Below are positions 2 through 12,707 of a DNA stretch of 64,000 bases, piece after piece. This DNA is from Thermanaerothrix daxensis (GTDB lineage Bacteria > Chloroflexota > Anaerolineae > Anaerolineales > Anaerolineaceae). The position numbers were made by a program, and so were the translations under genes. Every line of letters starts with the position of its first letter. Position 1 is the first letter of the stretch. The notes under the pieces are model-generated. The model saw only the letters and a list, made by a program, of their open reading frames with translations, ran no database searches and was not told the DNA's origin. The stretch covers positions 868,001-932,000 of the forward strand of contig NZ_LGKO01000002.1 in the NCBI RefSeq assembly GCF_001306145.1. The letters are read 5' to 3'.

Positions 2-538
2 GTTGGAACGATCCTTAGCGGGCACAATATTTTTACCTACCTGGCCTTCATTCTTACCTGGTTGGTTTCGGTGTACTTGTATCGTACGCCCCAGGGAGTG
101 CATTTACGAGCCGTGGGCGAAAATCCCGAAGCGGCGGCCTCGTTAGGGCTTAATGTACGGCGGATCCGGCTCGGCGCGCTTCTCCTGAGCGGGGTATTGG
201 CCTCTTTGGGAGGGTTGAATCTTTCCATGGCTTACTTGACCCTGTTTCAGCGCGAGATGACAGCCGGGCGAGGGTTTATTGCCCTAGCGGCGGTGTTCCT
301 GGGTGGGCGAACTCCATGGGGGACACTAATTGCCGCGATTTTGTTTGGGTTCTTTGATGCGCTTTCGAATCAGTTGGGTTCACTGGCTATTCCCTCACAG
401 TGGGTGCAGATGATCCCTTACGCGGCAACAGTGCTGGCGCTGGTGGTATATTCCGTACGTCAGCGGGCACAGGCAATTGAGCGAGCACGTCGTTTCCAGG
501 AGAAGCACTTAGCAGAAACCCATGCCGCAGGAGATTAA
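2..538 (+). CDS. ABC transporter permease, nucleoside/sugar type (5' truncated)
   Basis: C-terminal part of a membrane permease of the BMP/ribose-type ABC importer family. The frame is open from base 2, so the true start lies left of the window. Visible hallmarks are the cytoplasmic coupling segment with TPQGVHLRAVGENPEAA, followed by hydrophobic helices and the family motif AGRGFIALAAVFLGG. It ends in a basic, amphipathic tail. The next gene starts 2 bases after its stop, so it is co-transcribed with the nucleoside-catabolism genes that follow. The substrate is inferred from that context to be a nucleoside or a related riboside. It is the counterpart of the second permease of the complete importer at 42-47 kb but is a separate copy. 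Confidence 0.88.
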   Translation, partial: VGTILSGHNIFTYLAFILTWLVSVYLYRTPQGVHLRAVGENPEAAASLGLNVRRIRLGALLLSGVLASLGGLNLSMAYLTLFQREMTAGRGFIALAAVFLGGRTPWGTLIAAILFGFFDALSNQLGSLAIPSQWVQMIPYAATVLALVVYSVRQRAQAIERARRFQEKHLAETHAAGD

Positions 539-540
539 CC

Positions 541-1530
541 ATGCTAAACAGAATTTTGGGTGGGCTTTACGGGCAAGCGCTGGGGGATGCTTGGGGAATG
601 CCGGCTTTGTTAACCCCAGAGGCCACCTGGGAGCATTTTGGGGGCTGGGTGGAGACCTTTGTACCTGCACCAGAGGATCACCCGGTTCATGCGGGTTTAC
701 CGGCAGGGCGGGTCACGGATGATACGGAACAGGCTTTTGCCCTGGCTCAGGCTATTCTCTCAGATGGGTGTGTTAGTGCTGAGGGAGTGGCACGGGCATT
801 GATCGCGTGGTATGAGCGAATCGGTGGGGACCGCTCTCCGTATGTAGGTCCTTCTACCCGGCGGGCGATTCAAGCCCTGAAACGAGGCGAAGACCTTTAT
901 CAAGTGGGACGATTTGGGGATACCAATGGCGCGGCAATGCGTGTTTCTCCTGTGGGGTTGATCCATCCGGGCGACCCGAAGGGCGCGATCGCCGATGCAT
1001 ATCTATCCTGCATTCCCACGCATCATACCAATGTGGCGGTTTCGGGGGCTGCTGCCGTTGCGGCGGCAATTGCTACAGCCATGCGTCCGGAGGCTCACCT
1101 CGAGGATATTATTGCGGCAGCGAAAGATGCCGCCACCGTGGGACTGAAAATGGGGCATCTCTGGATGGGTGCCTCCATTGCCCGGCGCATTGACCTAGCA
1201 CTGGAAATCGTTCGAGGTCTGGGAAATGAGCGTGAGCGTCTGCAAGCGCTTTATGATGTAGTTGGGGCTGGTCTGGCGATTACCGAAGCGGTGCCGGCAG
1301 CCTTCGGGGTGTTGGTCATGGCTCAGGGAGATATCCGCCGCACGGCCATGTATGGTGCGGCGCTTTCCGGTGATGCTGATACTGTGACGGCCATTGCTTG
1401 TGCAATTGCCGGTGCGTGGAAGGGAATTGAAGCCTTCGATCCAAAATGGTTGGAGCAATTGCGGTTGGCCAATCCGGACCTGGATTTTGAAGCGGTTGCG
1501 GAGGGGTTGTATCAGTTGATAACTTGGTGA
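541..1530 (+). CDS. ADP-ribosylglycohydrolase family protein (DraG-like)
   Basis: A 329-residue, complete DraG/ARH-fold protein. It shows the family's dinuclear Mg-site motifs in order: GDAWG near residues 15-19, TDDTE at 59-63, TNGAAMR at 128-134, and SGDADT at 276-281 close to the C terminus. Family members hydrolyse the N- or O-glycosidic bond between ribose and a base, amino acid or phosphate. Here the gene lies between a transporter and a deaminase inside a nucleoside operon, 2 bases after the permease stop. A small-molecule riboside is therefore a more likely substrate than an ADP-ribosylated protein (inference). No signal peptide is seen, so it should be cytoplasmic. Confidence 0.88.
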   Translation: MLNRILGGLYGQALGDAWGMPALLTPEATWEHFGGWVETFVPAPEDHPVHAGLPAGRVTDDTEQAFALAQAILSDGCVSAEGVARALIAWYERIGGDRSPYVGPSTRRAIQALKRGEDLYQVGRFGDTNGAAMRVSPVGLIHPGDPKGAIADAYLSCIPTHHTNVAVSGAAAVAAAIATAMRPEAHLEDIIAAAKDAATVGLKMGHLWMGASIARRIDLALEIVRGLGNERERLQALYDVVGAGLAITEAVPAAFGVLVMAQGDIRRTAMYGAALSGDADTVTAIACAIAGAWKGIEAFDPKWLEQLRLANPDLDFEAVAEGLYQLITW

Positions 1531-1557
1531 GGCAATTGTTTTGGGGAGAAGATAGTC

Positions 1558-2886
1558 ATGCAGACTTTGCTGATTGAAGGTTGTGATCTTTTGACAGTTG
1601 AGAACGGGAATGTGCGTTTCTTGCCCCATCAGGATATCCTGATCGAGGGAACTTACATCAAGGCCATTGGACCGACTGGTAGCTTATCGGTCCCAAAGGA
1701 AGCCACGCGGCTTTCAGCGCAGGGATTATTGGCCATTCCAGGGTTGATCAACACTCATGCCCATGTTCCGATGGTGCTTTTTCGGGGTCTGGCGGAAGAT
1801 GTTACGATTGAGTCCTGGTTTAACGATTACATTTTTCCCCTTGAGTCCAATCTAACCCCTGAGGATGTTTATTGGGGAGCGCTTTTGGGGCTGGCGGAGA
1901 TGATTGAGGCCGGTATTACCTACGTGGCAGATCATTATTTCTTCATGGATGAGGTTGCCCAGGCTGTGAGTGAGGCGGGTCTCCGGGCCAACCTGGTTTG
2001 GGCGGTCTTTGGTCATGAGGGTGAGCAAAAACTGGCACGGACGGTTGAGTTTGTGAAACGCTGGCAGGGGACGGCTGAGGGGCGGATAACGACCTGGCTG
2101 GGTCCCCATGCGCCCTACACGACCACGCCCGACTTTTTACGCCTCTGTGCCCATTATGCTCGCGATCTGGATGTGGGCATCCACATTCATGTTTCAGAGA
2201 CAGCAGCCCAGGTTGCACACAGCCATCAACTCTATGGCATGTCGCCTGTGCGGGTTTTGTTGGAAAGTGGAGTTTTAGAGGTACCCACGCTTCTGGCTCA
2301 TTGTCTATATCCTGAGGAAGAGGACTATAAGATTCTGGCGGATCATCCTACCGGCATTGCTCATGCCCCCAAAACGTACTTGAAACTGGGGATGGGCACG
2401 GCACCAGTAAGTCGGTTCAGAAGCGTGGGTATTCCGGTGGGGCTGGCCACAGATGGTGCAGTCAGTAACAATACGTTGGATATTTTGGAGCAGATGCGTT
2501 TACTGGCGCTGACTCAGAAGGACGCAGCCCATGATTCGACAGTGATGCCGATTGCCGAAGTTTTGGCAATGGCATTTCTAGATGGTGCAAGGGTTGTGCG
2601 CCAAGATGGGGTGCTTGGTGCTCTGAAGCCTGGCTTCCTGGCCGATATTGCACTTCTGCGTCAGGATCGTTTGGCCATGTTCCCGCGCTATAATCCGGTC
2701 GCCAATCTTATCTATAGCGCTTCGGCACAGGATGTGGATACGGTGATTTGCAACGGGCAAGTGCTGATGCAAAATCGCCGTTTGCTCACGCTCGATAGGG
2801 AGAGGATCAAGGAAGAAGTTCAACGGCGTCTAGAACGACTGAATCAGCGTGTGCCTGGACGGCGGATCGCCACCTATCCGGTATGA
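1558..2886 (+). CDS. Amidohydrolase of the MtaD/SsnA aminohydrolase family
   Basis: A 442-residue metal-dependent deaminase of the COG0402 type. Metal ligands are visible: HAH at residues 67-69, His in HIHVSE at 209-214, LAHC with H248, and ATDGAVSNN with D299. The segment HVPMVLFRGLAED resembles methylthioadenosine/S-adenosylhomocysteine deaminases more than cytosine or 8-oxoguanine deaminases. The expected reaction is hydrolytic deamination of an adenosine-like nucleoside or a purine base in the cytoplasm. The ATG at 1558 follows a GGGGAGAAG ribosome site. It lies 27 bases after the DraG-like gene. The exact substrate is not decided by sequence; SsnA-type or chlorohydrolase-type activity is the alternative. 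Confidence 0.85.
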   Translation: MQTLLIEGCDLLTVENGNVRFLPHQDILIEGTYIKAIGPTGSLSVPKEATRLSAQGLLAIPGLINTHAHVPMVLFRGLAEDVTIESWFNDYIFPLESNLTPEDVYWGALLGLAEMIEAGITYVADHYFFMDEVAQAVSEAGLRANLVWAVFGHEGEQKLARTVEFVKRWQGTAEGRITTWLGPHAPYTTTPDFLRLCAHYARDLDVGIHIHVSETAAQVAHSHQLYGMSPVRVLLESGVLEVPTLLAHCLYPEEEDYKILADHPTGIAHAPKTYLKLGMGTAPVSRFRSVGIPVGLATDGAVSNNTLDILEQMRLLALTQKDAAHDSTVMPIAEVLAMAFLDGARVVRQDGVLGALKPGFLADIALLRQDRLAMFPRYNPVANLIYSASAQDVDTVICNGQVLMQNRRLLTLDRERIKEEVQRRLERLNQRVPGRRIATYPV

Positions 2887-2895
2887 GGAGGGGAG

Positions 2896-3579
2896 ATGAT
2901 CATTCAGATATATGCCTTTACCCGCCTCTCGGATGCTCTGGCGGCTGTGGATTTGGGGGTCAATCACATTGGGTTTGTAGCCGGGCGTTATGGTCTGGTG
3001 CATGGGGAGTTGGATTTTTCGGAAGCCCGTGCCCTGGTTGAGGGGTTGCCTGCACATGCTGTGAGCGTGGCCCTCACCATGGCAACTGAAGTAGATGAAA
3101 TTGTGCGCATGGCCCATGCGGTTAAGCCGCACATTGTCCATATTTCGACTGATCCGCTAGATGTGGATGAAGCGGCGATGCGGGCACTGAGGCAGCGCCT
3201 TCCCGATACGATTCGCCTGATGAAAGCCATTCCGGTTGGTGGAGAAGAGAGTCTGGAGTTGGCCCTTCGCTTTGCACCCTATTGTGATTTCCTCCTTTTG
3301 GATACCAAGGTGGTAGGATTCCCCGGCGTGGGCGCAACGGGTCACACTCATGATTGGCAACTTAGTCGTCGGATTGTTGAAGCTGTGAAGGTGCCCGTCA
3401 TTCTGGCAGGTGGTCTGAGCGCAGAAAACGTGGCTCAAGCCATCCATCAGGTTCGCCCTTATGGCGTAGATTCGAACACCCACACGAATCGCCCGGGGTC
3501 ACCTGTCGAAAAAGATTTACAACGTATCGCTGCATTTGTGCAGGCCGTACGCCGTGCGGTACAGGAGGAGGGAGGGTGA
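2896..3579 (+). CDS. Phosphoribosylanthranilate isomerase (TrpF)-like TIM barrel lacking the catalytic Cys
   Basis: A 227-residue beta/alpha barrel clearly related to TrpF. It keeps the central LLLDTK segment containing the TrpF general acid Asp, the HDW motif, VILAGGLSAENV and RPYGVDSNT. At the N terminus, where TrpF has KICGIT with the catalytic Cys, this protein reads QIYAFT, so the general base is absent. No other trp gene is present. Co-transcription with nucleoside hydrolases and sugar kinases suggests it binds a phosphoribosyl compound and performs a different isomerisation or cleavage (inference). The downstream kinase starts inside its last codons with GTGA, indicating translational coupling. 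Confidence 0.8.
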   Translation: MIIQIYAFTRLSDALAAVDLGVNHIGFVAGRYGLVHGELDFSEARALVEGLPAHAVSVALTMATEVDEIVRMAHAVKPHIVHISTDPLDVDEAAMRALRQRLPDTIRLMKAIPVGGEESLELALRFAPYCDFLLLDTKVVGFPGVGATGHTHDWQLSRRIVEAVKVPVILAGGLSAENVAQAIHQVRPYGVDSNTHTNRPGSPVEKDLQRIAAFVQAVRRAVQEEGG

Positions 3580-4607
3580 AGCGACCAACGATTGCCCTGC
3601 TGGGCGATCTCAACATTGACACTCTGCTGACGATCTCCCGTTTTCCTCAGCCCGGGTGGGATGGGCTGGCCGAATCGGCCACGGTGCAGGTCGGCGGTAC
3701 GGTGGTCAACACGGCAATTGTTCTCCGGCGGCTGGGGGTAAATTGCGCGCTACTTGGGAGCATCGGTCGTGATTTGTGGGGCGAATACCTGTATCGGGCT
3801 TTGCAGTCCTTGGGGATTGACCTCCAAGGAGTGGTGATGTTGCCAGAAAACATGACTGGTCTGACGTTTATTACGATTACGCCGGATGGGGAGCGAACCA
3901 TGTTCTCCTATCGCGGCGCGAACACTGCGTTTGCGCCACATCACCTGGGTGAGGGATTGCTGAACTCGATAGATTTGTTTCATCTCTCCGGCTATTCCTT
4001 GATGACATCCCCTCAGCGGGAAGCGGCACTTACCGCGTTGGCGCAGGCGGAAGCCGCTAATCTTCCCATTTGCCTGGATAGCGGGCTTCAGCCCGTCATG
4101 GATGCACCAGAGATTTTTGAAAGTGTTTTACCGCGGATATCCGTGGGCATTCTGGGAATGGCGGAAGCAGCCTATCTTAGCGGATACCAGCGGCCCGAAC
4201 AGATTCTGGATTGGCTACTGAGTTTGGGAATGCGCTGGGCCGCCATAAAGATGGGGGCTGAAGGTTGTTGGCTGGCTCATCATGAGCATCGCATTTATTT
4301 GCCCGCCTTTCCCGTAAAGGTTCGGGATACGACGGGGGCGGGTGATTCCTTCACTGCGGGGATTATTTGTGGGTATGTGTATGGATTGGGGCTTGTCCCG
4401 ACCGCAGTGTTAGCCAATGCTCTGGGGGCTTTGGCCACCACTGTTTATGGGGCCGGGCTGGCTTTACCCGCTCCTGAGGTTCTAGGTCCATTTCTGGAAG
4501 AAGTGGCCGAAATAACCGATTGGCACCCTTATGCGGAAGCCATTGATACCCTTAAGCACTTTCTCGCTTCTCTGGGTATCAGTTCAATGCTAACGCAACA
4601 GAGGTAA
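3576..4607 (+). CDS. PfkB/ribokinase-family sugar or nucleoside kinase (1 of 5)
   Basis: A 343-residue ribokinase-fold kinase. The N-terminal GDLNID strand, the VGGTVVNTA substrate-binding stretch and the C-terminal signature DTTGAGDSFTAG with the catalytic Asp are all intact. The GTG start at 3576 overlaps the stop of the TrpF-like gene by 4 bases and is preceded by GGAGGAGGG. PfkB enzymes phosphorylate ribose, nucleosides, fructose or related sugars with ATP. In this operon the likely substrates are sugars released by the nucleoside hydrolases, or nucleosides directly; sequence alone does not choose between them. Confidence 0.9.
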   Translation: MKRPTIALLGDLNIDTLLTISRFPQPGWDGLAESATVQVGGTVVNTAIVLRRLGVNCALLGSIGRDLWGEYLYRALQSLGIDLQGVVMLPENMTGLTFITITPDGERTMFSYRGANTAFAPHHLGEGLLNSIDLFHLSGYSLMTSPQREAALTALAQAEAANLPICLDSGLQPVMDAPEIFESVLPRISVGILGMAEAAYLSGYQRPEQILDWLLSLGMRWAAIKMGAEGCWLAHHEHRIYLPAFPVKVRDTTGAGDSFTAGIICGYVYGLGLVPTAVLANALGALATTVYGAGLALPAPEVLGPFLEEVAEITDWHPYAEAIDTLKHFLASLGISSMLTQQR

Positions 4608-4609
4608 GG

Positions 4610-5554
4610 ATGGGACTTCGAGTGGCATCGTTTGGCGATCTGGTGATGGATGTTGTAGCAGGGGTGCCTAGGTTGCCCATTGAGGCAGCCCGGGACCAGT
4701 TGTTAGACTACATTCGCATTGAGCCGGGAGGTGCGGGTAACTTCCTCATCACCGGGCAGCGCTTGGGTATGAGTATGTGTGCGGGTGGCGCTGTGGGGGA
4801 GGACACTTTCGGCTACTTGGTGCTGCAAATCCTCAGGGAAGAGGGGGTAGATGTCTCGGAAGTACACCACTTGCCCGGGGGAACTACGACCACTGTGTTC
4901 GTTCTGGTTGACCGACTTGGGGAGCATGTGTTTTTGGGGCGTAGCGGTGAGGGACCGGAATTGCTACCTGGCCCATGGATGGAAACCTTTCTCAAAGACG
5001 TTCAGGCTTTACAGGTTTGGGGCTATACCTTTATGGAAAAACCCCTGGTGGAGAGCATGCTCCGACTAGTTGAGATGGCTCACCAGCGTGGGATCCCGGT
5101 TTTCTTTGACCCTGGCCCCCAGTTACAGGCCACACCGGAGTGTTTGGAGCGTTTGCTGCGTTGTACCCGGGTTATCCTTCTGACTGAGGCCGAGGTACCA
5201 CTGGTGACGGGGGGGTGTATAGGCGCAGAGGGCATTGAGAGGCTTCTTGACCGTGGCCCCGGCTTGGTCGTGGTCAAACAAGGGGTCAAGGGGTGTACGG
5301 TGCACACCCGCACCGAAACAATTGTTGCGCCAGGGTTCCCGGTCCCTCTTCGTGATACCACAGGTGCAGGTGATGCATTTGCTGCTGCTTTTTTGTACGG
5401 TTATTTGCACGAATGGCCGTTGCATCAGGTGGCTACTTTTGCCAATGCGACCGGTGCGGCCAAGGTGCAGAAGATTGGCTCGGGACGGCAGGTGCCCACG
5501 GCGGATGAGGTTCGTCGGGTGCTGCGTGATTTTCGCGTGGACATTGATTTCTAA
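4610..5554 (+). CDS. PfkB/ribokinase-family kinase (2 of 5)
   Basis: A 314-residue ribokinase-fold kinase with N-terminal FGDLVMDVV, a PGGAGNFL substrate-binding glycine motif and the intact catalytic signature DTTGAGDAFAAAF near residue 250. It starts 2 bases after the preceding kinase stop, behind an AGAGGTAAGG ribosome site. It is clearly a different paralog from its neighbour, so the two probably act on different sugars or at different positions. Cytoplasmic ATP-dependent phosphorylation is expected from the family; the substrate is unknown. Confidence 0.88.
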   Translation: MGLRVASFGDLVMDVVAGVPRLPIEAARDQLLDYIRIEPGGAGNFLITGQRLGMSMCAGGAVGEDTFGYLVLQILREEGVDVSEVHHLPGGTTTTVFVLVDRLGEHVFLGRSGEGPELLPGPWMETFLKDVQALQVWGYTFMEKPLVESMLRLVEMAHQRGIPVFFDPGPQLQATPECLERLLRCTRVILLTEAEVPLVTGGCIGAEGIERLLDRGPGLVVVKQGVKGCTVHTRTETIVAPGFPVPLRDTTGAGDAFAAAFLYGYLHEWPLHQVATFANATGAAKVQKIGSGRQVPTADEVRRVLRDFRVDIDF

Positions 5555-5573
5555 ACGGAGGTCTTGGCAGAAT

Positions 5574-5987
5574 ATGTTTACAAAGGTACAGGTTGCGACA
5601 ACGTTTCGAGAAGGCTTGATCAATATTACCGAGTCAATTAGAGAGGTGGTGCGCACAAGTGGGATTAAAGAGGGGGTTTGTGTACTTTATGTTCCCCATA
5701 CCACAGCAGCCATTACTCTAAATTCTTGTCTGGACCCGGCCACACTCCAGGATTTGACCGAAGAACTCCATCGTTTAGTTCCTACGCGGGTGGATTTTCA
5801 TCATACGTATGATACTCCGGCAGATGCGGCGGGTCACATTAAGTCCACCCTGGTAGGACATAGTCTGATGCTTCTGATCACCCAGGGGGAGATAGCGCTG
5901 GGAGGATCGCAGAGCATCCTCTTCTTTGAATTCGACGGGCCGCGTCAACGCGAAGTGTGGGTGCGAGTGATTCGGGATACGGATTAG
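5574..5987 (+). CDS. YjbQ/UPF0047 family protein
   Basis: A 137-residue single-domain protein. The chosen ATG at 5574 lies just behind ACGGAGGTC; the same frame stays open far upstream, but that part overlaps the preceding kinase in another frame and is not coding. Family motifs visible are VPHTTAAITLNSC, HHTYDTPADAAGHIK and GGSQSILFFEFDGPR. YjbQ proteins have reported secondary thiamine-phosphate synthase activity, and the true role of most members is unsettled. Placement between sugar kinases and nucleoside hydrolases suggests a role with heterocycle-linked phosphates here (inference). Confidence 0.87.
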   Translation: MFTKVQVATTFREGLINITESIREVVRTSGIKEGVCVLYVPHTTAAITLNSCLDPATLQDLTEELHRLVPTRVDFHHTYDTPADAAGHIKSTLVGHSLMLLITQGEIALGGSQSILFFEFDGPRQREVWVRVIRDTD

Positions 5988-5999
5988 GGAGGAGCGCAC

Positions 6000-6971
6000 G
6001 TGGCTGAGAAGGTCATCATTGATACCGATCCGGGCATTGACGATGCCATGGCAATCTTGCTGGCACTCCGGTCGTCAGAACTGGACGTGATCGGTCTAAC
6101 CAGCGTTTTCGGCAATGCTACTACTGAAGTGACGACCCTGAATGCCTTGCGTCTGGTTGAACTGGAGGGCCATTACGGTATTCCAGTAGCGCGGGGATGT
6201 GAGCGGCCACTGGTACTGCCCCTTGGTGAACTGGGCACTTATGTCCATGGCGAGGATGGTTTGGGAAACACTTTCCCTCCACTTCCCAAAGGAAAGCCCC
6301 TTCCGCTTCACGCGGCTCAGTTTATTCTTGAGGCATTGCGGCGTTTCCCAGGTGAGGTCACCTTGCTGGCGCTGGGCCCCCTGACAAACCTGGCGCTGGC
6401 GGTGAGTCTGGATCCTGAGGCGGCCGCGCTGGCACGGCGTGTGGTGATTATGGGGGGAGCGGCTGAGACACGTGGCAATATATCGCCTGTGGCTGAAGCC
6501 AATATTTACAACGATCCCCATGCTGCGGCCATTGTCTTCAAGGCGAGTTGGCCGGTGACGATGGTGGGGCTTGATGTGACCACCCGCGTTATCATGACTC
6601 CGGAATATTGGGAGCGGTTGTATCAAGCAGGAAACCGGGCGACCGATTTTCTGCGCGCTATTACCCCTTTCTATCAACAGTTTCACGATCAATTTTATGG
6701 TATGGGGGGCGCCACCCATACCCATGACCCCACAGCTGTGGCTTACCTTCTGGTGCCCGAATGGTTTGAGGCGCCTGAATTACCGGTTTATGTGGAAACG
6801 CAGGGGCGGTGCATGGGGCAAACGGTAGTGGATTGGCATGGCCAGTGGGAGGGCTTGCCCCGGGTCAAGGTTTGCCTGGGAGTCAACGCCGAGGCTGTGC
6901 TTGATCTAATTTATGAGCGTTTGGCGAAACCAATGGAGAGCGATGAGGAAAATGAAACGGCTGTGGATTGA
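6000..6971 (+). CDS. Inosine/uridine-preferring nucleoside hydrolase (1 of 2)
   Basis: A 323-residue nucleoside hydrolase. The N-terminal calcium-binding signature DTDPGIDDAMA is canonical, and the family block LALGPLTNLALA and the MGGAAETRGN region follow. A C-terminal His in HTHDPTAVA fits the usual leaving-group or ribose-contacting position. The GTG start at 6000 follows GGGAGGAGCG. The enzyme cleaves the N-glycosidic bond of nucleosides to give free base and ribose, in the cytoplasm. It lies 12 bases after yjbQ and overlaps the second hydrolase gene by about 20 bases. Confidence 0.92.
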   Translation: MAEKVIIDTDPGIDDAMAILLALRSSELDVIGLTSVFGNATTEVTTLNALRLVELEGHYGIPVARGCERPLVLPLGELGTYVHGEDGLGNTFPPLPKGKPLPLHAAQFILEALRRFPGEVTLLALGPLTNLALAVSLDPEAAALARRVVIMGGAAETRGNISPVAEANIYNDPHAAAIVFKASWPVTMVGLDVTTRVIMTPEYWERLYQAGNRATDFLRAITPFYQQFHDQFYGMGGATHTHDPTAVAYLLVPEWFEAPELPVYVETQGRCMGQTVVDWHGQWEGLPRVKVCLGVNAEAVLDLIYERLAKPMESDEENETAVD

Positions 6972-7884
6972 TTCTGATACCGCTTCCGATGATGCTGTTG
7001 CCATTCTAATGGCTTTACGTTGGCCCGGGGTGCATGTAGAAGGTGTCAGCATCGTGGCAGGTAATGTGCCAGTACCCCTGGGTAGTCGCAATGCGCGTTA
7101 CACAATCGAATTGTGTGGTGCAGACGCGCCGGTCTATGAGGGTGCTTCTCGCCCCTTAATGCGAGAGCCTGTCTGGGCTTATTTCTTCCACGGTGCGGAC
7201 GGTATGGGGGAAATGAATTATCCGGAGCCCAAGCGAGGCCCGGCTTCGCTCCATGGGGTTCTGGCGATGATTGAAGCCTTGCGGCGGTTTCCAGGCGAGA
7301 TAACGTTAGTAACCCTGGGCCCTCTGACCAACCTTGCATTGGCATTGCGTCTAGCACCCGACATCGTATCGTTAGTTTCCCACTGTTACATCATGGGAGG
7401 AGCGGCTGCCACCCTTGGGAATATTACGCCGGCGGCTGAGTACAACATCTGGGTGGACCCAGAAGCGGCCAGGATAGTGTTTCATTCCGGCCTGCCCATG
7501 ACCATGGTGGGATGGGAACTTTGCCGAGGGGAGGCCAATCTTAATGATGCGGAGATGGCGGAGATTCGTGCTTTGAACCACCCGCTAGCAGATTTTGTGT
7601 TGGACTGTAATCGCCAGGCCATCCGGGTAAATCGCGAATGGCTGCATGAACCCGGATTACCTTTGCCTGATCCTGTGGCCATGGCGGTGGCGTTAGATCC
7701 GGATGTGGTCACCCGAGCCTCTTCCCATTACGTGACAGTGGAAGTGTCCAGTGATCTGACACGTGGGATGACGGTTGTGGATGAGCGCGGTGTGCTCAAT
7801 CAACCACCCAACCTGCGGGTGGTGTGGGAAATTGACGTGCGGCGCTGGAAACAGGATTTGCTTGACGTGCTCCGTGAGTCATGA
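6952..7884 (+). CDS. Nucleoside hydrolase family protein (2 of 2), divergent
   Basis: A 310-residue paralog of the upstream hydrolase. The start was placed at ATG 6952, preceded by GATGAGGAAA within the end of the previous gene; ATG 6943 is an alternative. The active-site loop reads DSDTASDDAVA instead of DTDPGIDDA, keeping the metal-binding Asp pattern DxDxxxDD but changing the flanking residues. The blocks LVTLGPLTNLALA, MGGAAATLGN and a late LPDPVAMA are present. The C-terminal region lacks the HTHDPT His found in paralog 1 (it reads LPLPDPVAM), so base specificity probably differs. Its stop overlaps the next start as ATGA. Confidence 0.88.
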   Translation: MKRLWIDSDTASDDAVAILMALRWPGVHVEGVSIVAGNVPVPLGSRNARYTIELCGADAPVYEGASRPLMREPVWAYFFHGADGMGEMNYPEPKRGPASLHGVLAMIEALRRFPGEITLVTLGPLTNLALALRLAPDIVSLVSHCYIMGGAAATLGNITPAAEYNIWVDPEAARIVFHSGLPMTMVGWELCRGEANLNDAEMAEIRALNHPLADFVLDCNRQAIRVNREWLHEPGLPLPDPVAMAVALDPDVVTRASSHYVTVEVSSDLTRGMTVVDERGVLNQPPNLRVVWEIDVRRWKQDLLDVLRES

Positions 7885-8804
7885 ACCAGCCTGTTCACTA
7901 TGACATATTCTGCCTGGGCGGCGCAGCCGTGGATTGGATACTGCGCGTGCCCCGCTTGCCCTGGCCGGATGAGAAACTGGTGGTTGACTTCGTGAGTCGG
8001 GTAGCGGGGGGATTGGTAGCCAATACTGCCTGTGCGGCGGCACGCCTGGGCTTGCGGGTGGCATGGAGCGGCCTTTTGGGCAAGGACGAGGGGGGTGAAA
8101 TTTTACGGCGTGGTTTCGAAGAGTTTGGGGTTGAAGTCGTGTTTCCGAATACTTCTCCGCCGGCTTTGAGCGATTTTACGGTTGTTCTTCTGGAGCCATC
8201 GGGCTGTCGAACCATCCTGGTGGTAAGCCCAGAACGGCGTCTGCCCCCCCTCAACAATGAAGTCATTAACGCTCTGGCGCAAGCACGTCTTGTTTACACC
8301 GTGCCTTGGACCGTTGGCTGGATCAGAGAAGTTGCTCAAATTTGTGAGCGAATTGGCATTCCGCTGGTCCTTGATGTTGAAGCAGGCAATCTTGGAAATC
8401 TCTTGGATCAGAAGGGTGTCCTTTCGGTGGTGCGTTTGCTCTTTTGCCCCCAAGAGACCATTCGAGGCCTTTCTGGTCGAGAGGAAGTGGCTCAAGATCT
8501 GATTGAAGCCGGAGTGGAGCAGGTGGTGATCACGAAAGGAGCAGAGGGGGCCATTGTCCTGACGCGGGATGGTAGGTTTGCTGCACCTGCCTATAGGGTG
8601 CCAGTCGTAGACACAACCGGTGCCGGAGACTGCTTTCATGCCGCCTATCTGGCAGCCTGGTTGTGGGGTTGGTTGCCTCCTCGGGCTGTGCGGTTTGCCA
8701 ATGCCTCGGCCGCTCTTTCCGTTCAGCATTTGGGAGCACGGGGTGGTTTCCCTACCCGCGAGGAGGTCTTGAAATTCCTTTCCGAGCAGGGGGAGGCCTT
8801 GTGA
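7881..8804 (+). CDS. PfkB/ribokinase-family kinase (3 of 5)
   Basis: A 307-residue ribokinase-fold kinase starting in an ATGA overlap with the nucleoside hydrolase. It shows FCLGGAAVDWI at the N terminus, a GGLVANTACAAARLG sugar-binding stretch, and the intact catalytic motif DTTGAGDCFHAAYLAAW. Immediate coupling to the nucleoside hydrolase suggests it phosphorylates the released pentose, that is, acts as a ribokinase (inference). The next gene overlaps its stop by 4 bases (GTGA). Confidence 0.9.
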   Translation: MNQPVHYDIFCLGGAAVDWILRVPRLPWPDEKLVVDFVSRVAGGLVANTACAAARLGLRVAWSGLLGKDEGGEILRRGFEEFGVEVVFPNTSPPALSDFTVVLLEPSGCRTILVVSPERRLPPLNNEVINALAQARLVYTVPWTVGWIREVAQICERIGIPLVLDVEAGNLGNLLDQKGVLSVVRLLFCPQETIRGLSGREEVAQDLIEAGVEQVVITKGAEGAIVLTRDGRFAAPAYRVPVVDTTGAGDCFHAAYLAAWLWGWLPPRAVRFANASAALSVQHLGARGGFPTREEVLKFLSEQGEAL

Positions 8805-9727
8805 TAGATTTTGTGGCCTTTAACCTCATTCTGGATGATATTGTCCTTCCGGATGGACGTACTGCAATGGCGGAACTAGGTGGCGGAGGGGCGCAGACGG
8901 CGTTTGGAATGCGGTTGTGGTCAGATTCGGTGGGGTTGGTGGCGAGTGTGGGGCCCGACTTTCCCCAGGTGTGGTGGCAGTGGTTGGAGGCGTGGGGCAT
9001 TGATTTGCAGGGTGTAAGGCAGACAGAGCAGCCCTCCTTGCGAGCGTGGCAGTTGTTAGAGTATGACGGGCGTCGCACACAAATCTGGCGCGTTCCCCCA
9101 GAGGCCTTGATGGCTCATTTGAGCCGCCGCATTGAATGGCTGCCAGTTGCCTACCGTCAGGCACGGGGATTCCATTTAGGAGTTCATCCTCTGGAGGGGG
9201 GAGGCGAGTTTGTGCAGAATCTGGGCAAACTCGGGGGTGTAATCAGCTTGGAGCCCTTTAAGCCCGCTGAGTGCTTGCCCGCCCAAGAAACAGTGCGGCA
9301 TTTGGTTTCGCAGGCAACGATCTTCTCGCCCAATCTGGAGGAAGCCGTCTCCTTGTTTGGACCGGCATCGCCGCCAGTCCTGTTGCGCCAATTCTTAGAA
9401 GCGGGGGCAACAGCGGTGGCGCTGCGGTTAGGTGCACAAGGGGCCTTACTTGCCCAACAGGGACGGAATGAACTGGTTCACGTTCCTCCGGTTGAGGTGG
9501 AGGTAGTGGATCCCATTGGGGCGGGAAATGCGTTTTGCGGTGGCTTCCTGGTGGGCTGGGTGGAAACCGGGGATCTTGTTGAGGCCGGTCTGCGTGGGGC
9601 GGTCTCGGCGTCGTTTCTGGTTACTCAGGTGGGTATGCCCCGAGTTCCAATCACCACGGCTCGCGAGATGGCGAATGAACGCTTGAAGCAGTTACGAGAC
9701 CGTGTGACCACCTTGTCGTTCGGGTAA
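8801..9727 (+). CDS. PfkB-like protein with GAGN in place of GAGD (4 of 5)
   Basis: A 308-residue ribokinase-fold protein. GTG 8801 was chosen because it overlaps the previous stop as GTGA and leaves a full N-terminal strand; the frame is open further upstream but that is the previous gene. The usual catalytic signature D-T-x-GAGD is replaced by DPIGAGNAFCGGFLVGW, so the residue normally acting as base is Asn. The N-terminal block LILDDIVLPDGRT is shared with the paralog at 11759. This form resembles the yeast MAK32 branch. Either it uses another base or it is a non-catalytic or regulatory member. Confidence 0.85.
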   Translation: MIDFVAFNLILDDIVLPDGRTAMAELGGGGAQTAFGMRLWSDSVGLVASVGPDFPQVWWQWLEAWGIDLQGVRQTEQPSLRAWQLLEYDGRRTQIWRVPPEALMAHLSRRIEWLPVAYRQARGFHLGVHPLEGGGEFVQNLGKLGGVISLEPFKPAECLPAQETVRHLVSQATIFSPNLEEAVSLFGPASPPVLLRQFLEAGATAVALRLGAQGALLAQQGRNELVHVPPVEVEVVDPIGAGNAFCGGFLVGWVETGDLVEAGLRGAVSASFLVTQVGMPRVPITTAREMANERLKQLRDRVTTLSFG

Positions 9728-9757
9728 GAGACAATTTTTTCTTTCACGGAGGTTTTC

Positions 9758-10906
9758 ATGAACACGATGTTGGCTCAAATATTCAGTTTGCCGGCTTTGG
9801 TCGGCGAGGTCTTCCCGAGTTTGGATGAGACCGTACGCAAGGTGTTGGATCATGAATTGTGCCTTTCGGTCAAGCGCCTTTTTCTGGTTGGGTGTGGGGA
9901 CTCGCACCATGTGGCATTGAATACGGAATATGCTTTCGAGGCACTGGCGGGTGTTCCTGTGGAGCCCATGACGGCTTTACAGTACGCTCGCTATGCTGCC
10001 GGGTACATGCCATCTATTGGACCGTTGACCAACCTTGTCATTGGCGTTTCTGTCTCCGGTGCTGTGGCGCGGACGGCTGAGGCTCTGGCGATGGGACGGC
10101 AGTTTGGTGCTGTGACCATTGCACTGACCGCTACGCCGGGCAGTCGAGTTACTCAGGTGGCCGAACGTACGTTTCTGGCTGCAGCGCCGCCTTTTGATGA
10201 ACCACCAGGCACGGCAACCCCAGGGGTGCGCTCATTCTTCGTCAACCAACTGGCCTTATTATTGAGCGCTGTTCGTTTGGGGGAGGTGCGTGGACGTCTG
10301 ACATTGGGTGAGGCTGATGCCTGGCGGGCGCGCATTCGCGGTCTGGGCGAAGCCGTTGCCTGGACGCTGGAACACGCCGAACCTCGGGCGCGTGAACTGG
10401 CACAAGCCTGGAAAGATGCCAGTGAGTTTGTCTTCGTTGGTGGTGGGCCTAATTTTGGTACGGCGCTTTTTTCAGCAGCCAAGATTCTAGAGGCATCAGG
10501 CGATTCTGCGCTGGGTCAGGATACTGAGGAGTGGGGGCACTTGCAGTACTTTGCCCGGGCGGTGGAGACGCCCACTTTCTTCATTACCGCGGTGGGGCGA
10601 GAATATTCGCGTACGGTAGAGGCTGCCACTGCGGCGAAAACCATTGGTCGGCGTGTGGTGGCCATCGCACCAGATGAGGCCACCGCTTTGGTGGAACTGG
10701 CCGACAGCCATCTTCCCATTGCCAGCGTACCGGAGGTGCTCTCCCCAGTGGTGGCGGCGATCCCAGGAGAACTTTTTGCTGCTTACCGCGCTGAAGTGAT
10801 TGGCGAGACATTCTTCAGGGGATTTAGTGGCGGCCGAAGCATTGAAGGTGGTGGGGGGATCAGCCGCATTCGCACCAGCGAGACTTGGGAGGCGTGGCAA
10901 CCATGA
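9758..10906 (+). CDS. Double-SIS-domain sugar-phosphate isomerase/deaminase-like protein
   Basis: A 382-residue protein with two sugar-isomerase (SIS) domains. The first begins with LFLVGCGDSHH near residue 42, the second with FVFVGGGPNFGTAL near residue 230. The layout matches the isomerase half of glucosamine-6-phosphate synthase and the AgaS/FrlB-type deaminases, without the glutaminase domain. An ACGGAGG ribosome site precedes ATG 9758. It overlaps the BtpA-like gene as ATGA. The likely role is isomerisation or deamination of a phosphosugar made by one of the kinases; the substrate is unknown. Confidence 0.85.
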   Translation: MNTMLAQIFSLPALVGEVFPSLDETVRKVLDHELCLSVKRLFLVGCGDSHHVALNTEYAFEALAGVPVEPMTALQYARYAAGYMPSIGPLTNLVIGVSVSGAVARTAEALAMGRQFGAVTIALTATPGSRVTQVAERTFLAAAPPFDEPPGTATPGVRSFFVNQLALLLSAVRLGEVRGRLTLGEADAWRARIRGLGEAVAWTLEHAEPRARELAQAWKDASEFVFVGGGPNFGTALFSAAKILEASGDSALGQDTEEWGHLQYFARAVETPTFFITAVGREYSRTVEAATAAKTIGRRVVAIAPDEATALVELADSHLPIASVPEVLSPVVAAIPGELFAAYRAEVIGETFFRGFSGGRSIEGGGGISRIRTSETWEAWQP

Positions 10907-11727
10907 AGGGCTTGCAGGTTTCGGGGTTCAGCGCACTGCGTGTGATTGCGGCGCTGCATCTGCCTCCACATCCCGCCTCGCGCCATCCCGCCGCACAGCC
11001 CATGCGTCAGATTGTGGACTACGCCTTGCGTAATGCTGAGCGCGCCGTTAGAGCCGGAATCCCGGCGCTGTATATTCAGGATGTAGCCGATACCCCGGTT
11101 GCGTCGTCCGTACAGCCCCACACGGTGGCTTCTTTGTCTGTCGTGGGGGCAGCCTTACGGCAGGCTTTCCCCGACCTGATTTTAGGGGTCTGCCTGATGA
11201 GCCATGGAGCGCGGGAGCCACTGGCTATTGCGCAGGCGGTGGAGGCTCAGTTTGTGCGCCTCAAGGTTTATGTGGGCGCGATGGTTAAGGCGGAGGGAAT
11301 TCTCCAGGGGTGTGCTTATGAAGCCGTTCAATACCGCGCTCAGTTGGGAGCGGAGAATATTGCGATTCTGGCCGATGTTTATGATCGCACTGGCGAACCT
11401 CTGGGCCGTTTACCGCTGGTTGAGGAGGCGCGTCAGGCGGCTGTTTTTGGGCGGGCAGATGGGCTGGTGTTGACGGGACTTTCGTTTGCAGAGTCTTTGG
11501 AGATGTTAGGCCAAGTGCGTGCGGCAGCTCTGGGCGTACCCTTGTTCCTGGGGGGTGGTGCCAATGCCGGTAACGTGGCACAGGCCTTGCAAGTAGCAGA
11601 TGGGGTGATTGTTAGTAGTACCTTCAAGTCCCGCCAGGGCTGGACGCGAGAGGCCCTCCTAGATGAATGGGAAATAGAGCGAATTCAAGTGTTCATGGAA
11701 GCGGTTCAAAGGGCTCTTCAATCATGA
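10903..11727 (+). CDS. BtpA/SgcQ family TIM-barrel protein
   Basis: A 274-residue barrel protein. The start at ATG 10903 sits in an ATGA overlap with the SIS gene; the frame is open slightly upstream but that part belongs to the SIS gene. Family features include HLPPHPASRHP near the N terminus, GIPALYIQDVADTP, IAILADVYDRTGEP, DGLVLTGLSF and the terminal phosphate-binding type loop LFLGGGANAGNV plus DGVIVSSTFK. BtpA was named for photosystem I biogenesis in cyanobacteria, while SgcQ lies in an E. coli sugar operon. The operon placement here favours a sugar-phosphate enzyme. No reaction is established. Confidence 0.85.
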   Translation: MKGLQVSGFSALRVIAALHLPPHPASRHPAAQPMRQIVDYALRNAERAVRAGIPALYIQDVADTPVASSVQPHTVASLSVVGAALRQAFPDLILGVCLMSHGAREPLAIAQAVEAQFVRLKVYVGAMVKAEGILQGCAYEAVQYRAQLGAENIAILADVYDRTGEPLGRLPLVEEARQAAVFGRADGLVLTGLSFAESLEMLGQVRAAALGVPLFLGGGANAGNVAQALQVADGVIVSSTFKSRQGWTREALLDEWEIERIQVFMEAVQRALQS

Positions 11728-11758
11728 TAAGTTGTGAGAATTATGGGAGCGCACGAGT

Positions 11759-12649
11759 GTGTTCGTCTCCATTGGTGTGGTGATCCTGGATGATATTGTC
11801 TTGCCCAATGGCAGGACTCAGATGGGCGTGCTTGGGGGTGGTGCAACTCATGCGGCCATGGGAATGCGCCTGTGGGAGGATCGGGTTGGCCTTCTGGTAA
11901 CCCTGGGGAACGACTTCCCTCCCGACCTGGAGGCTCAGTTGAGGCATGCTTTCCTGCCTGAAGGCTTGCTTCACCGGTCGTACCCTGTATTACGAGCCTG
12001 GCAGGTATTTGAGGCGGATGGCACCCGTCATGAGGTTTTCCGCGTGGATTCCAGTTGGGTAGAGCAGAGCGTACCCGCCCCTGAGGACTGGCCGAGTGCA
12101 TTTCAAGATGTGCAGGGAGTTCATTTGCATTGTGCCCCTTGGGAAGTGCCGCGTTGGGCCACCTTTTTGCGTGGCCAGGGGGTTTCCACTCTTCTCTGGG
12201 AGCCATGGGATGCCTTTTGCGTACCTCAGAATCGAGAGCGGTTTGCTGAGTATCTGGGGTGGGTGGATATTGTCTCACCTAACTTGGGTGAGGGGCAAGC
12301 CCTGACCGGTCGGCAGTCTCCGCACGAGGTAATGAGCGCTCTACTGGCCATGGGGGCAAAAGTGGTAGCCCTGCGGATGGGCGCTCAGGGCAGTTTGGTG
12401 GGGAAGGTTGGAGAGGAATTTATTGCAATTCCACCTGTTTCTCCTGCTTGTATTGTAGATGTCACCGGCGCCGGCAATGCTTATTGTGGGGGATTTCTGG
12501 TGGGATGGGTGCAGCAGCGCAACTTGCGTTGGGCTGGATACCTGGGGGCCGTTTCGGCTTCAATGGCGCTGGAGCAGTTCGGTGCTTTGTACGATTGGGA
12601 GGAGGCTCGTCCACGCGCACTTGAACGCTTGCGGCAACTTACCTTTTGA
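11759..12649 (+). CDS. PfkB-like protein with GAGN in place of GAGD (5 of 5)
   Basis: A 296-residue close paralog of the gene at 8801, sharing ILDDIVLPNGRT, LGGGATHAAMGMRLW and the altered signature DVTGAGNAYCGGFLVGW, again with Asn where PfkB kinases have the catalytic Asp. The start is GTG 11759, about 10 bases after GGGAG; no ATG is available near the N-terminal strand. The two GAGN proteins bracket the SIS and BtpA genes, forming a four-gene unit at the operon end. A terminator hairpin follows. Confidence 0.83.
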   Translation: MFVSIGVVILDDIVLPNGRTQMGVLGGGATHAAMGMRLWEDRVGLLVTLGNDFPPDLEAQLRHAFLPEGLLHRSYPVLRAWQVFEADGTRHEVFRVDSSWVEQSVPAPEDWPSAFQDVQGVHLHCAPWEVPRWATFLRGQGVSTLLWEPWDAFCVPQNRERFAEYLGWVDIVSPNLGEGQALTGRQSPHEVMSALLAMGAKVVALRMGAQGSLVGKVGEEFIAIPPVSPACIVDVTGAGNAYCGGFLVGWVQQRNLRWAGYLGAVSASMALEQFGALYDWEEARPRALERLRQLTF

Positions 12650-12665: not shown

Positions 12666-12707
12666 ACGGGCTCAGAGCCCCAATTTTCTGGGCGTTTCTG
12701 AGCCCGT
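12666..12707. terminator. Bidirectional terminator between the nucleoside operon and the OsmC gene
   Basis: An 11-bp perfect inverted repeat (12666-12676 with 12697-12707) lies between two convergent genes. On the minus strand it is followed by a run of six T, so it is a good intrinsic terminator for the OsmC gene. On the plus strand the T-tract is weaker (TCGGTTTGCGTT). Confidence 0.82.

Follow-up and report, generated by a model that had tools for sequence, protein, structure and literature searches.

A predicted operon for the uptake and use of nucleosides and related ribosides in Thermanaerothrix daxensis

A tightly packed run of genes in Thermanaerothrix daxensis probably forms one operon whose products take up nucleosides and related ribosides and use them as carbon sources, to judge from the protein families and motifs that it encodes. 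The initial annotation had proposed an undescribed pathway, and no account of this combination of genes was found in the literature searched. The isomerase and barrel steps that would follow the phosphorylation of pentoses or nucleosides are also undescribed in that literature. The five anciently distinct sugar-kinase-like proteins of the operon and several enzymes of uncharacterized role suggest a breakdown route that is still to be worked out.

Extent and layout of the operon

The window is the whole stretch of 64,000 nucleotides that was analyzed, and the operon genes below lie on its forward strand. The 14 genes of the initial annotation are all present in their places on one strand, each with a family match above the Pfam cut-off. 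They are tightly spaced: the gaps range from -20 to +31 bases and include several overlaps of 4 bases. The gene list itself was incomplete, as the operon begins upstream of the window. The window edge truncates the permease gene at 2-538, and upstream of it lie a third nucleoside hydrolase (NHc), the first permease, an ATPase, and a BMP binding protein. A TTGACA-18-TATAAT promoter (12/12 match to sigma-70) is located in front of NHc, and a terminator-like hairpin (12668-12680) lies between the operon and a convergent OsmC gene. From the upstream genes, the single promoter, and the hairpin, we infer a unit of 18 genes with three hydrolases at about 862.5-880.7 kb of the genome (C1). Better start positions were found for YJBQ (5574), NHb (6952), PFKB4 (8801, GTG), and BTPA (10903). 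The operon holds three of the four nucleoside hydrolases and five of the 14 PfkB proteins of the genome, both above chance.

Importer, hydrolases, and deaminase

The first gene in the window is the 3' part of ABC permease 2 of a BMP-type importer (2-538; PF02653, 1.4e-25); the complete gene starts upstream, and the complete ORF of 323 amino acids is found in locus L009. The importer set is complete, consisting of the binding protein (PF02608, 2e-68), two ABC_tran stretches forming a double ATPase, and PF02653 twice. Not all BMP-type importers carry nucleosides; this one appears, by prediction, to be of the nucleoside type.

ARH (541-1530; PF03747, 2.3e-56) is a hydrolase of the ADP-ribosylglycohydrolase family that has the family fold and the two metal motifs TDDT and DADT intact at residues 59 and 278, while its score of 63 bits is below the NCBIfam equivalog cut-off of 337 for DraG (ADP-ribosyl-dinitrogenase reductase hydrolase). 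DEAM (1558-2886; PF01979, 1.6e-63) is an amidohydrolase of the 5'-deoxyadenosine/MTA/SAH deaminase group, with a best NCBIfam score of 387 bits against a cut-off of 609. The nucleoside hydrolases NHa (6000-6971; PF01156, 7.8e-98; motif DTDPGIDD) and NHb (6952-7884; PF01156, 4.8e-94; motif DSDTASDD), together with NHc, all possess the PF01156 fold and the N-terminal DxDxxxDD calcium motif of IU-NH enzymes.

The five PfkB proteins

PFKB1 (3576-4607; PF00294, 4.2e-48), PFKB2 (4610-5554; 3.8e-46), and PFKB3 (7881-8804; 2.3e-41) are PfkB kinases with the catalytic Asp in their GAGD motif. PFKB4 (8801-9727; PF00294, 2.4e-31) and PFKB5 (11759-12649; 3.7e-21) are PfkB-fold proteins in which Asn replaces this Asp (GAGN), as it does in 58 of 63 readable relatives (11/11 of the PFKB4 type and 47/52 readable ones of the PFKB5 type). 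They may not be ordinary kinases. MAK32 was considered as a name for the GAGN group and set aside, as no paper that so names it was found. The closest solved structure to PFKB5 is the nucleoside kinase 3kd6 (TM 0.83). In the tree, the five proteins fall into five separate, old, and positionally conserved clades with no recent copies; PFKB1 groups with the Ensifer, Shinella, and Sinorhizobium partners of TRPFL (98/97), and PFKB2 (100/99) and PFKB3 (99/95) form clades of their own. None of the five reaches the ribokinase RbsK cut-off (TIGR02152, 299.65 bits), the best score being 130.6 bits. The initial annotation had read the extra kinases, together with the two barrels and the SIS protein, as a sign of several different or modified sugars; this is supported in part, in that five old and distinct subfamilies favor distinct jobs, and two of the five, PFKB4 and PFKB5, lack the catalytic Asp.

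Barrel enzymes, SIS protein, and YjbQ

TRPFL (2896-3579; PF00697, 1.3e-17) is a barrel protein resembling phosphoribosylanthranilate (PRA) isomerase, with a QIY motif. It lacks the catalytic Cys of that enzyme, which is Tyr in 16/16 sequences, while Q4 and Y6 are invariant in 16/16 and the Asp is kept. Its score of 109 bits is below the TrpF equivalog cut-off of 215, and a second PRA-isomerase-like frame is present elsewhere in the genome (C1:389016). The TRPFL of Rhizobiaceae is paired with a PFKB1 orthologue and also occurs with genes for a sugar ABC importer and for a PLP enzyme; Sinorhizobium medicae WSM419 is one carrier of TRPFL and its PfkB partner.

SIS (9758-10906; PF01380, 6.1e-18) is a double-SIS protein of 382 amino acids related to the isomerase domain of GlmS, with which it shares the catalytic Glu and His (E245 and H261, corresponding to GlmS Glu488 and His504; both invariant) and the SxS phosphate loop (S98 and S100, also invariant). 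It differs from GlmS in lacking a glutaminase domain and in having 'EEWxHLxYF' where GlmS has 'GELKHGP'; no counterpart of the C-terminal catalytic Lys of GlmS was seen, and the score of 101 bits is below the GlmS equivalog cut-off of 418. A role as a stand-in for a missing ribose-5-phosphate isomerase was ruled out because RpiB-family genes are present in the genome.

BTPA (10903-11727; PF03437, 2.6e-42) is a TIM barrel of the BtpA/SgcQ family, scoring 145.5 with PF03437 (cut-off 30) and 152.1 with TIGR00259 (cut-off 153.4). A search with its predicted model (pLDDT 89) returned only generic phosphate-binding barrels at TM of about 0.55-0.6, thiamin phosphate synthase among them. In the literature searched, the name 'BtpA' mostly turned up an unrelated protein of Brucella. 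YJBQ (5574-5987; PF01894, 1.8e-36) is a UPF0047/YjbQ protein that scores above the TIGR00149 cut-off (126.2 vs 67.75 bits).

Conservation in other genomes

The refuting condition named in the initial annotation, a lack of co-conservation elsewhere, did not hold: the genes are kept together in Chloroflexota, and sub-modules of the set recur in Alphaproteobacteria and a haloarchaeon. Both the set of genes and its arrangement are conserved across Anaerolineaceae, where relatives keep most genes in the same order (L096-L107, 40-95% identity); the cultured Levilinea saccharolytica has the operon in L100. Among 80 SIS-centered loci, nucleoside hydrolase genes occur in 50, PfkB genes in 63, and ARH in 21, whereas these families are absent from all 20 control loci centered on ordinary GlmS genes. 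Many reverse-strand ORFs of the loci were filtered out by their amino-acid make-up. Mesorhizobium has a GntR-PfkB-SIS-BtpA-BMP importer module; a Rhizobium plasmid combines SIS, YjbQ, a nucleoside phosphorylase, PfkB, and nucleoside hydrolase; and the salt-loving archaeon Halostella has TRPFL, PfkB, nucleoside hydrolase, ARH, and a BMP importer. PsuG (pseudouridine-5'-phosphate glycosidase) adjoins SIS-BtpA in several loci, and SIS-BtpA is common to variants with nucleoside hydrolase and variants with PsuG. PsuG takes the YjbQ slot in L155 and L071 only, and the sole PsuG of T. daxensis lies outside the operon beside a PfkB (C1:963453-964313). Elsewhere, BtpA is found with TenA and ABC importers and without nucleoside genes.

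Proposed pathway and alternative explanations

In the proposed pathway, the BMP-family importer would bring in nucleosides, the deaminase and hydrolases would free base and pentose, PFKB1-3 would phosphorylate pentoses or nucleosides, SIS would isomerize the phospho-pentose, and phosphorylated pentose or N-riboside intermediates would be the substrates of the BtpA and TrpF-like barrels on the way to central metabolism. As each kinase subfamily is conserved on its own, the operon would handle more than one kind of sugar or riboside; the handling of modified sugars is plausible. There are two portable kinase-plus-barrel modules, PFKB1-TRPFL and PFKB5-SIS-BtpA, besides the further kinases PFKB2 and PFKB3, PFKB4, and YjbQ. 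Both modules may serve sugar-like compounds other than nucleosides, because of the TenA and ABC-importer company of BtpA and the rhizobial neighbors of TRPFL.

Nucleoside hydrolase and ribokinase are a standard salvage pair, and the operon could be read as ordinary salvage with redundant paralogues, in which the hydrolases release ribose, one or more PfkB proteins are ribokinases, SIS adds a further ribose-5-phosphate isomerase, and the other genes are accessory. The sharing of SIS-BtpA by the nucleoside hydrolase and PsuG variants agrees with this, as their common product would be ribose 5-phosphate, but five old kinase subfamilies are kept in position with none at the ribokinase cut-off, and the genome already has two RpiB-family, five PNP-family, and three DeoC-family proteins besides PsuG, so this reading is unlikely. 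A route that consumes the breakdown products of NAD or ADP-ribose, in which ARH splits an ADP-ribosyl or ribosyl link and the hydrolases and kinases clear the ribose, would suit the intact metal motifs of ARH, its company with nucleoside hydrolase and a BMP importer in Halostella, and the transporter, ARH, and PfkB trio of E. coli yegTUV (PMC10819704). It is very unlikely, since NUDIX, NMN, and nicotinamide genes are absent among the 18 and many SIS-nucleoside hydrolase-PfkB clusters lack ARH.

The breakdown of glycated amines (Amadori compounds), with SIS as an FrlB-like deglycase, PfkB as an FrlD-like kinase, and TRPFL as an Amadori-type isomerase, is less credible still. The reaction of PRA isomerase is an Amadori rearrangement, a peptidase-like gene adjoins SIS in marine loci, and SIS is weakly similar to the fructose-amino-acid-6-phosphate deglycase 3eua (1.4e-13); it is, however, far more similar to the isomerase domain of GlmS (1.3e-30), its common neighbors are nucleoside hydrolases rather than amino-acid genes, and TRPFL has no catalytic Cys. 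The slimmest chance is given to vitamin-type salvage of thiamine or related heterocycles by BtpA, YjbQ, and TenA-like enzymes. It draws on BtpA adjoining TenA in Pantoea, Klebsiella, Rhizobium, and Sagittula plasmids, on YjbQ models named for a secondary thiamine-phosphate synthase activity, and on the thiamin phosphate synthase among the BtpA fold neighbors. Any phosphate-binding barrel would give such matches, TenA is absent among the 18 genes, and nucleosides are what the hydrolases and the BMP importer suggest.

A bolder reading is tentative, possible rather than probable: both modules would be novel routes for breaking down phosphorylated pentoses or N-ribosides that derive from modified nucleosides, with TRPFL performing a rearrangement or cleavage of a non-canonical kind, SIS-BtpA a GlmS-like isomerization and then a barrel step, and PFKB4 and PFKB5 either PfkB-fold chemistry with no need for the catalytic Asp or regulation; the TRPFL part would be common to bacteria and archaea.

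Comparison with known systems and significance

Standard nucleoside catabolism (BMP importer, hydrolase, and ribokinase) has the same importer parts, hydrolases, and PfkB in one operon, to which the present operon adds three hydrolases, five PfkB subfamilies, ARH, the TrpF-like and BtpA barrels, the double-SIS protein, and YjbQ. The yegTUV operon of E. coli, of unknown function, encodes a nucleoside-type transporter, an ADP-ribosylglycohydrolase, and a PfkB protein (PMC10819704); it shares this combination but has three genes, an MFS transporter, and no hydrolase, SIS, or barrels. The pseudouridine pair PsuK-PsuG has a PfkB kinase in common with the operon, and PsuG is linked to SIS-BtpA in several relatives, although the operon itself has no PsuG. 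The 2'-O-methylnucleoside clusters, which serve ribose-modified nucleosides, consist of a hydrolase, a DERA-like aldolase, and a ribokinase (PMC6278475) and likewise group a nucleoside hydrolase, a kinase, and a barrel enzyme, but the barrels of the operon are TrpF-like and BtpA, with no DERA-family aldolase.

Proteins of rhizobial plasmids labeled phosphoribosylanthranilate isomerase belong to a catabolic-looking family without the catalytic Cys of TrpF. The operon links to nucleoside use four families that are poorly understood, namely YjbQ, BtpA/SgcQ, TrpF-like barrels annotated as PRA isomerase, and Asp-less PfkB proteins, and its conserved gene order suffices to predict partners and offers testable substrates for these widespread families.

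Operon extent and architecture

All 14 one-strand genes of the families named in the initial annotation were confirmed in the first 12.65 kb of the window, each above its Pfam cut-off, and the close packing described there holds, with gaps of -20 to +31 bases and repeated 4-base stop-start overlaps. The operon is cut by the window edge, and its upstream part lies in the next 5.5 kb (L009), which encodes a third nucleoside hydrolase (NH; PF01156, 6.6e-75) and importer components, namely a BMP/PnrA binding protein (PF02608, 2e-68), a double ATPase, and the first permease, which fits with the permease at 2-538 of the window. A perfect promoter, TTGACA-18-TATAAT (L009:4528-4557), precedes the third NH, while a terminator-like hairpin (12668-12680) precedes a convergent OsmC gene. 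Spacing, promoter, and terminator patterns thus point to a transcription unit of 18 genes. Its importer, hydrolases, ADP-ribosylglycohydrolase-family hydrolase (ARH) with intact metal motifs, and deaminase-type amidohydrolase (DEAM) are established by sequence. The operon holds five of the 14 PfkB genes and three of the four NH genes of the genome.

Conservation in Chloroflexota

The double-SIS protein (SIS) served as the conservation marker, and orthology was assigned from sequence and position. Close SIS relatives (45-53% identity) occur in 14 of 150 genomes of the class. The best 80 SIS loci from a scan of ~85,000 genomes all belong to Chloroflexota and allied groups; since these best 80 of one scan were kept, the range outside Chloroflexota is known from plasmid records only. 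Around them, NH is found in 50 and PfkB in 63, counted by blast thresholds that miss diverged members; no member of any operon family was found in 20 loci centred on ordinary GlmS from that class.

The co-occurrence that the initial annotation proposed to look for in other genomes was found: the families are co-conserved, with modules beyond the phylum, and the order ARH-DEAM-TRPFL (TrpF-like barrel)-PFKB1-PFKB2-YJBQ-NHa-NHb-PFKB3-PFKB4-SIS-BTPA (BtpA/SgcQ-family barrel)-PFKB5 is kept in Thermanaerothrix sp. (L096), Anaerolinea (L097), Levilinea (L098, L100), and others (L101, L106, L107), varying by single losses or one added hydrolase. A reduced form comprises the importer, ARH, PFKB2, YjbQ, NH, SIS, and PFKB5 (L111, L112, L114, L123, L131, L137); in a marine form, the importer adjoins genes for NH, a peptidase-like protein, SIS, and PFKB5; and the Caldilineae form is NH, ARH, NH, NH, PFKB3, SIS. 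The peptidase-like (weak M20) gene lies between NH and SIS in ~20 marine Chloroflexota loci (L121, L130, and others; e.g., L121:8661-9749). PsuG adjoins SIS-BtpA in several loci. In L155/L071, the place between PFKB2 and NHa, which is that of YjbQ in the window, is taken by PsuG.

Occurrence beyond Chloroflexota

Mesorhizobium huakuii plasmid pMHb carries consecutive genes for GntR, PfkB, SIS, BtpA, BMP protein, ATPase, and two permeases. On a Rhizobium leguminosarum plasmid, SIS, YjbQ, and a nucleoside phosphorylase diverge from ABC importer genes accompanied by a PfkB gene, whose product carries Asn in place of the catalytic Asp, as PFKB4 and PFKB5 do. An NH near this SIS locus is split over two frames (L184:1070-2037), a pseudogene or sequencing error. 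The haloarchaeon Halostella pelagica groups TRPFL, PfkB, NH, and a BMP importer with an ARH gene on the opposite strand. The TRPFL genes of Ensifer, Shinella, and Sinorhizobium are transcribed divergently from those for a sugar ABC importer, a PLP enzyme, and a kinase that clusters with PFKB1 in the tree.

In four plasmid loci (L189-L192), BtpA/SgcQ adjoins TenA-family genes with ABC importer genes nearby, and in three of them also a PfkB/ribokinase gene; this is a second, unexplained BtpA context.

Enzyme families

The five PfkB subfamilies separate in the tree, each tied to its own operon position, so the five proteins are not recent copies. PFKB1, PFKB2, and PFKB3 have a GAGD motif and are probably active kinases. 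PFKB4 and PFKB5 have GAGN, which is shared by 58 of the 63 relatives whose motif could be read; the Asn aligns with the catalytic Asp of nucleoside kinase 3kd6, the closest solved fold to PFKB5 (TM 0.83). Asp is kept in the Mesorhizobium relative and in one Chloroflexota sister lineage.

In all 16 TRPFL members, Tyr replaces the catalytic Cys of PRA isomerase; the Asp is kept, and TRPFL has a VDSxTxTN loop. The positions of the catalytic Cys and Asp are established for TrpF. The TRPFL signature recurs in Halostella and Ensifer. Proteins annotated as phosphoribosylanthranilate isomerases in Rhizobiaceae plasmid loci L194-L196 are probably misannotated: they show QIY and VDSxTxTN but no catalytic Cys, and their genes neighbour those of a sugar ABC importer, a PLP enzyme, and PfkB. 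SIS keeps the SxS phosphate loop and equivalents of Glu488 and His504, the established catalytic residues of GlmS. The structural model of BtpA is a TIM barrel, and its fold singles out no particular enzyme as the closest. Neither PFKB1-5, SIS, nor DEAM reaches a named NCBIfam equivalog cut-off, and TRPFL is below every one.

Proposed pathway

The closest described cases are standard NH-ribokinase salvage, E. coli yegTUV, of unknown function (PMC10819704), and the 2'-O-methylnucleoside clusters of hydrolase, DERA-like aldolase, and ribokinase (PMC6278475); all lack this operon's set. In the proposed pathway, nucleosides would be imported and the hydrolases would free the base, with prior deamination where needed; the pentose or nucleoside would then be phosphorylated, and the product converted by SIS and the two barrels. 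Because SIS-BtpA is common to NH-bearing and PsuG-bearing clusters, it probably acts on a pentose phosphate, or on something closely derived from one, that both routes share; this makes an exotic modified sugar less likely. The Mesorhizobium module has no hydrolase, so its kinase may use the imported compound itself as substrate.

About 31 kb past the window end, PsuG directly adjoins a PfkB kinase (contig positions 963453-965260, L176), a probable separate pseudouridine catabolic pair. With RpiB, DeoC, PNP, and PsuG families present elsewhere in the genome, the extra enzymes of the operon would either go beyond standard salvage or repeat it under a control of their own.
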